A stretch of 32,216 bases of DNA, from positions 1-32,216 of the forward strand of contig QHYL01000422.1 in assembly GCA_003224105.1 (NCBI GenBank), written 5' to 3'. This DNA is from Acidobacteriota bacterium. GTDB taxonomy: Bacteria; Acidobacteriota; Terriglobia; Acidiferrales; UBA7541. Positions within the stretch are counted from its first letter, which is position 1. Each line of letters begins with the position of its first letter. The position numbers and the translations under genes were made by a program. Under the pieces are notes generated by a model. The model was not told the origin of the DNA and did no database searches. It saw nothing but the letters and a program-made list of their open reading frames with translations. Shown piece after piece: positions 27,974 through 28,151 of the stretch.

Positions 27974-27979
27974 GATAAT
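27974..27979 (+). promoter_or_regulatory. Possible -10 element for the tRNA-like RNA
   Basis: GATAAT matches five of six -10 positions and is followed by a GC-rich discriminator. It ends 15 bases before the predicted 5' end of the cloverleaf. The -35 is weak (TTTAGA at 27953-27958, short spacing), so this is suggestive only. Confidence 0.3.
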
Positions 27980-27994
27980 AGGACCTCGCGCATC

Positions 27995-28087
27995 GGTGGG
28001 TAGCACCAGCCGTGCAGGGGGTCTTATAAGCCCTGGGAAACGCTAGATTAGCGTGCCGGGAGGGGGCGGCACCCTCACCCACCACCA
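27995..28087 (+). tRNA. tRNA-like cloverleaf, anticodon UAU, long variable arm, atypical D- and T-loops
   Basis: A 93-nt plus-strand segment folds as a full cloverleaf. The acceptor GGTGGGT/ACCCACC (27995-28001/28077-28083) has 7 of 7 pairs. It is followed by encoded A-CCA (28084-28087). The D stem is GCAC/GTGC (28003-28006/28012-28015). The anticodon stem is GGGGT/GCCCT (28018-28022/28030-28034, two G-U pairs) with loop CTTATAA, giving U33 and anticodon UAU (28025-28027). The variable arm is ACGCTA-GAT-TAGCGT (28040-28054). The T stem is GAGGG/CCCTC (28060-28064/28072-28076), abutting the acceptor as in real tRNAs, with a 7-nt loop. Odd points: one linker base before the D stem instead of two, a 5-nt D-loop (CAGCC) without GG, and T-loop GGCGGCA instead of TTCRA. 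A class II arm with an Ile-type anticodon is unusual. It may be a divergent or serine-type tRNA, a tRNA-like regulatory RNA, or a pseudogene. Confidence 0.55.
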
Positions 28088-28106
28088 ATCTCAAAGCCAA
28101 AACACA

Positions 28107-28129
28107 GTGCAGGCTGAAGTCTGTGCTAC
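28107..28129. repeat. Third copy of the TGAAG-hairpin repeat
   Basis: GTGCAGGC-TGAA-GTCTGTGC pairs over all eight positions (three G-U) and is followed by TAC, matching the loop and tail of the two units between groES and groEL. It lies 20 bases after the tRNA-like segment and 22 bases from the tgpA-like stop. The rest of the 317-bp gap (27835-27973 and 28088-28106) shows no ORF or other structure that I can support. Confidence 0.65.
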
Positions 28130-28151
28130 GGCAACCTGGTTCGAACGAACT

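Follow-up and report, generated by a model that had tools for sequence, protein, structure and literature searches.

A tRNA-Ile with the anticodon UAU works together with an adapted IleRS in Mycoplasma mobile and in lactic acid bacteria. The bacterial norm is a tRNA-Ile2 whose position 34 bears a lysidine-type base and which IleRS does not otherwise charge, the enzyme requiring either G34 or a lysidine-type modification (PMC11938285, PMC9976931). It is because of this preference of IleRS that UAU is nearly unused in bacteria, the anticodon being missing from nearly all of them (PMC8007984). The tRNA-Ile(UAU) of M. mobile and lactic acid bacteria, which is expected to read AUA without lysidine (PMC4013482; PMC9976931), shares its anticodon with the RNA analysed here. 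No long variable arm is described for it, whereas our family combines a long arm bearing a GAU loop with a divergent core.

Going by a review of allo-tRNAs (PMC7609411), the closest reported relative of our element is the allo-tRNA(UAU) of soil bacteria, the most abundant soil allo-tRNA group, which counts an Edaphobacter pseudogene among its members. The review reports a long variable arm, a UAU anticodon, polycistrons of irregular tRNAs, variants with broken stems, a tendency to escape standard tools and an occurrence in soil bacteria, Acidobacteria among them, all of which recur in our family. It defines allo-tRNAs by an 8/4 or 9/3 split between acceptor and T stems, and gives the UAU group as 8/4 or 9/4, whereas our family has a 7/5 split; phage tRNA arrays, a GCC/GGC elbow and an Ile-like variable-arm loop do not appear in it. 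Like an allo-tRNA, our element combines a long variable arm with an anticodon that has no relation to serine. On this comparison of descriptions, the published allo-tRNA(UAU) sequences may be the same as our family or a sister to it. Also similar in its core is tRNA-Pyl, which likewise has a one-base linker, a five-base D-loop without GG and a T-loop without T-psi-C (PMC7609411), and which shares a 6-bp anticodon stem with most relatives of our element. It differs in its CUA anticodon and very short variable loop, and we found no sequence relation between the two.

The stretch of DNA analysed, referred to here as the window, is a 32,216-nt contig (QHYL01000422.1) of a soil Acidobacteriota bacterium, in which a tRNA-like gene lies in an intergenic region with an ordinary gene on either side (Table 1). 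All five helices that the initial annotation had proposed fall where it placed them and together form the minimum free energy (MFE) fold of the plus strand, a cloverleaf ending in ACCA. The 7-bp acceptor stem, 5-bp T stem, 7-nt anticodon loop and encoded CCA end are those of a standard tRNA, and A73, U33, A37 and A38 are retained; absent are the D-loop G18G19, the T-loop TTCRA and U8, in place of which the RNA has CAGCC, GGCGGCA and A8. A73 and an isoleucine anticodon (UAU, or GAU in L060 and L069) are sequence traits of tRNA-Ile. The variable region spans 25 nt. The five-pair anticodon stem, as initially described, is real in the window and is one base shorter than that of most relatives, which have 6 bp. 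Also as anticipated, scanners miss the element: ARAGORN called no tRNA within the window, an Rfam search of the window returned nothing even at E<=5, hence no known Rfam family, and the Rfam tRNA model found 39 tRNAs in the whole genome, none of them at the element.

Table 1. Features of the tRNA-like element in the window (positions counted from the first base of the window).
Feature	Positions	Strand	Observations
Promoter-like box GATAAT, whose end is 15 nt from the start of the RNA	27974..27979	+	NATAAT-like box at this distance in 7/11 solitary copies
tRNA-like RNA gene with encoded CCA	27995..28087	+	MFE cloverleaf; family covariation; constraint at an orthologous locus of two other species
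Acceptor stem, 5' strand GGTGGGT (partner 28077-28083)	27995..28001	+	6/7 pairs changed on both sides among relatives
One-base linker, A replacing U8/N9	28002..28002	+	A in nearly all family members
D arm, stem GCAC/GTGC, loop CAGCC (28007-28011)	28003..28015	+	Every intact solitary copy has CAGCC
Anticodon arm, stem GGGGT/GCCCT, loop CTTATAA, TAT at 28025-28027	28018..28034	+	CTTATAA in nearly all members
Variable arm ACGC-TAGATTA-GCGT, GAT at 28046-28048	28040..28054	+	Stem covaries; loop motif retained
T arm, stem GAGGG/CCCTC, loop GGCGGCA (28065-28071)	28060..28076	+	Pairing in 98.9% of cells across the family
Acceptor stem, 3' strand ACCCACC, discriminator A and CCA	28077..28087	+	ACCA in nearly all members

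The folding energy is unexceptional for the base composition (z = -1.25, with 21 of 200 shuffles equally stable), which makes the single sequence weak evidence, so the proof of structure rests on comparison. DNA searches turned up the element in two congeners (G017 and G004) and, in decayed form, in G090, G092 and G373, and a pattern scan of GTDB genomes added further copies, all in records labelled Acidobacteria, Acidobacteriota or Acidobacterium. A covariance model built from nine copies, which gave the window element an E-value of 1.1e-23 with that copy included in the model, extended the search to more distant members in G282 (2.3e-17, outside the model), G193 and G378. In the G282 member, the acceptor and T stems are mostly rewritten through paired changes. 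Across 37 distinct members, 92.7% of cells pair and 23 of 28 pairs have changed on both sides, the compensatory changes that the initial annotation had proposed looking for. Covariation scores 0.504, compared with 0.174 for shuffles, none of 500 shuffles reaches any of these measures, and sliding the partners by 1-3 columns lowers pairing to 36-48%. Since the alignment was fitted to the model it somewhat favours the structure, and relatedness inflates covariation scores, yet with an effect this large the fold is scarcely in doubt, and a chance structure is ruled out. The first claim that the helices exceed chance stands on the relatives; the energy of the single sequence does not prove it.

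Judged by these matches, the element belongs to a class II (long variable arm) tRNA-Ile-like family with the anticodon UAU, in line with its early description as a divergent tRNA-like RNA of the allo-tRNA kind in Acidobacteriota. The linker A and the loop CTTATAA are near-universal, the GAT anticodon of L060 and L069 being the variant, and the 7/5 stem split described at the outset holds throughout; an eighth acceptor pair would be A-C. Several other matches were set aside: one in G003 (L004) lies within a coding region and, like the pattern matches outside the Acidobacteriota (L045, L046, L049, L050, L052, L053 and L055-L058), is missing the rest of the structure and is attributed to chance, and the weak phylum-wide matches of a second model were partly ordinary class II or Ile tRNAs, plus a tmRNA.

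The relatives of the element are regular members of phage and bacterial tRNA arrays. Those in G282, G193 and G378 sit among 10-16 tRNAs within ~3 kb, and patterns derived from these array forms match contigs in IMG/VR, where by covariance score 40 viral loci, pre-selected with a short pattern from the element, carry it. All 17 of the viral loci that were scanned for tRNAs hold arrays, of 4 to 35 tRNAs each. Two viral array loci encode T4-type clamp-loader and sliding-clamp proteins, and a third encodes a Ro60 homologue and adenylosuccinate synthetase. Array and viral D-loops are small and contain GG except in L111 (TGGT, AGGT, CGGCC, CGGCT), and with few exceptions their T-loops are of the [TA]TCGA or [TA]TCGT type; other Acidobacteriota arrays (L144, L145, L190-L192) have members with more ordinary D-loops or T-loops. 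Cultured phages and plasmids gave no DNA match to the element. Dense tRNA arrays of Acidobacteriota at L190-L193 (G858, G930, G905) were also seen to include a class II tRNA-Ile(TAT) with a 3-nt D-loop, CGG in L190 and L192.

The window copy, in contrast to these relatives, is chromosomal and solitary, ARAGORN calling no tRNA in the window, and has a remodelled elbow. By its loops it is a member of a solitary host subfamily with the D-loop CAGCC and the T-loop GGC[AG]GCA, the latter specific to solitary forms; the T-core pattern was not found in viral contigs. The odd loops and one-base linker noted initially are fixed among the intact solitary members. The D-loop GCC is complementary to the T-loop GGC; the elbow contact may therefore persist in exchanged form instead of having disappeared. 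The competing GTGCCG/CGGCAC hairpin, first proposed as a possible switch, is not conserved, its 3' strand reading CAGCAC in other solitary copies. The viral form L075 has the D-loop CGGCC, one change from CAGCC, and in a tree of these short sequences the solitary copies form a group, modestly supported (47-74%), among the forms from arrays and viruses, which makes descent from an array form likely, short of proof, and lends weak support to a viral ancestor. Seven of the eight searched genomes with a solitary copy have just one and the eighth has two, while the decayed copy of G373 is likewise single. The loci are unrelated: the window copy lies between rimO and a TgpA-type transglutaminase gene, and the neighbours elsewhere, read from translations, include larC, tsaD/GrpB, methylmalonyl-CoA mutase and others. 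Around larC, a search for empty sites found the gene in relatives and no alignable insertion boundary.

Two observations concern the surroundings of solitary copies. L062 has, 0.7 kb from its intact copy, a second and degraded one (L062:5000-5095), whose anticodon loop reads CTCATGA and which has its upstream block in common with the intact copy. Short inverted repeats of the GCACGACTTCAGTCGTGC type lie beside the element in the window (28105-28130) and in L062 (near 4150 and 4925), and in these two species they resemble a dispersed palindromic repeat.

A NATAAT-like box lies 15 nt upstream in 7 of 11 solitary copies, mostly at unrelated loci, and a sigma-70 scan upstream of the window element gave no full match. 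We infer from the shared box that it may act as a promoter. We rejected the idea that the minus strand serves rimO as a leader or riboswitch, since that strand folds worse, neighbours vary between species, and a conserved promoter-like block closer to rimO is retained in relatives that lack the element. Nor is the antisense orientation to the flanking genes, which the initial annotation had singled out as a feature, conserved.

A variable arm of 4-5 bp closing the 7-nt loop [CT]AGATNR fits most members. The long arm first described is real, and its division into 6 bp and 3 nt fits most relatives less well. The stems vary by compensated changes while GAT stays constant, with exceptions in L047 (GCT), L067 (lost) and L111 (GAC). 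Set against 40 isoacceptor anticodon arms taken from these arrays, the arm is nearest to tRNA-Ile(GAT), both in the loop (mean 4.4/7) and over the whole arm (best 14/15). The likeness is weaker in the window's own genome, where the arm shares 11 of 15 bases with tRNA-Ser(GGA) and 8 with tRNA-Ile(GAT), the closer whole-arm match to tRNA-Ser(GGA) being due to the stem. As the likeness was noticed after viewing the data, we treat mimicry of the tRNA-Ile(GAU) anticodon arm by the variable arm as a hypothesis. Serine acceptance, suggested initially, is not favoured by the sequences, in which A73 and the Ile-like loop point to isoleucine.

Constraint is directly visible at a locus, L060/L185, where two species have the element in the same place. 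The element differs between them at only 3 of 94 sites (3%), the gene next to it at 35% of its third codon positions, and the upstream spacer is barely alignable. If sites are treated as independent and change neutrally at 0.35 per site, no more than three changes would have P ~6e-14, which indicates that this copy is under selection; one of the three turns the anticodon from UAU to GAU, still isoleucine. For the window copy the comparison is with G017, from which it differs at ~13 of 95 sites, counted by eye, against 35-46% of third positions in neighbouring genes (P ~2e-6). These changes fall mostly in the acceptor and D stems, which are broken in G017, so the G017 copy is probably failing; the direct evidence of constraint thus applies to the L060/L185 locus.

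We propose that the element is a stand-alone class II tRNA-Ile-like gene of the host, descended from an array tRNA, charged with isoleucine, reading AUA and using its variable arm to recruit IleRS, a reading that we judge evenly balanced between right and wrong. The ancestor would be a tRNA of the phage or Acidobacteriota array type, kept by a host lineage as a solitary gene, in which the contact between D-loop GG and T-loop UC would have been rebuilt as complementary GCC/GGC, perhaps with the L-shape preserved. The RNA would be transcribed from its own promoter with its CCA end encoded, isoleucine being the amino acid most likely charged. Its UAU anticodon could read AUA independently of lysidine, on which the usual tRNA-Ile2(CAU) relies, and the GAU-bearing variable arm would help to bring in IleRS, supplying what that enzyme needs. 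The element may thus represent an unrecognised way of reading AUA codons. In an engineered case, HisRS variants were recruited modestly by a pseudo-anticodon placed in the variable arm (PMC7590224). The combined version, in which one RNA has two Ile-type anticodon arms (UAU to decode AUA, a variable-arm GAU pseudo-anticodon to recruit IleRS) along with phage-array origin, solitary retention, GCC/GGC elbow and freedom from lysidine, we hold to be unlikely as a whole.

The main doubt about ribosomal use comes from the solitary T-loop, which lacks T54-psi55-C56 and A58 and is unusual for a ribosomal tRNA. The leading rival is accordingly a tRNA-derived RNA outside translation, either a mimic with a regulatory role through binding to IleRS or to some other tRNA-binding protein, or a decoy in the conflict between phage and host. 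We consider this somewhat unlikely. Intact solitary copies combine fixed non-standard T- and D-loops with sequence constraint, their relatives are members of phage arrays, and the UAU allo-tRNAs tested in E. coli are described as inactive in translation (PMC7609411), all of which would suit a mimic; the CCA end, A73, U33, A37/A38 and the UAU-to-GAU change suggest instead that decoding or recognition by IleRS is still selected. Next is a functionless, decaying remnant of a mobile tRNA array. Presence is patchy (within the genus the element occurs in 3 of 36 species, and elsewhere in ~6 of 250 species of another family), the window copy is one anticodon-stem base short, and stems are broken in G017, G090, G092, G373 and the second L062 copy. 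The initial annotation would have taken such breaks as a sign of decay or chance; they occur side by side with intact copies under constraint. That the new loops are common to the intact solitary copies and absent from array forms, that the upstream box is shared, and that the L060/L185 copy has changed so little make a remnant quite improbable. A small mobile tRNA-derived element, a ~140 bp unit that includes the upstream block and is moved by the enzymes of other elements, would account for the common block at intergenic loci that differ between species, for the second copy in L062 and for a rimO intergenic region that in the window and G017 is ~200 bp longer than in most element-free relatives, but the single copy in nearly all searched genomes, the constraint at a fixed locus and the lack of terminal repeats or target duplications on inspection by eye render it very improbable.

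A class II tRNA-Ile(UAU) that is frequent in phage arrays and has an Ile-like variable arm would show how viruses may supply AUA decoding independently of the lysidine enzyme of their host. The solitary copies, their elbow rebuilt, would then be a rare instance in which cells have retained a phage-type tRNA, and the unexplained soil allo-tRNA(UAU) group would gain a genomic context and a testable function.

Several further features were seen near the viral tRNA arrays. The Ro60-type protein at L076:9762-11387 has TROVE and vWA domains by Pfam match, and a viral protein at L074:9324-10952, also near a tRNA array, resembles it by eye. ARAGORN further identified a permuted-type tmRNA (L074:7163-7509) on a 165-kb viral contig, where it adjoins the tRNA array, and a tRNA-Pyl (CTA) at the end of a 35-tRNA viral array (L077:6738-6813).
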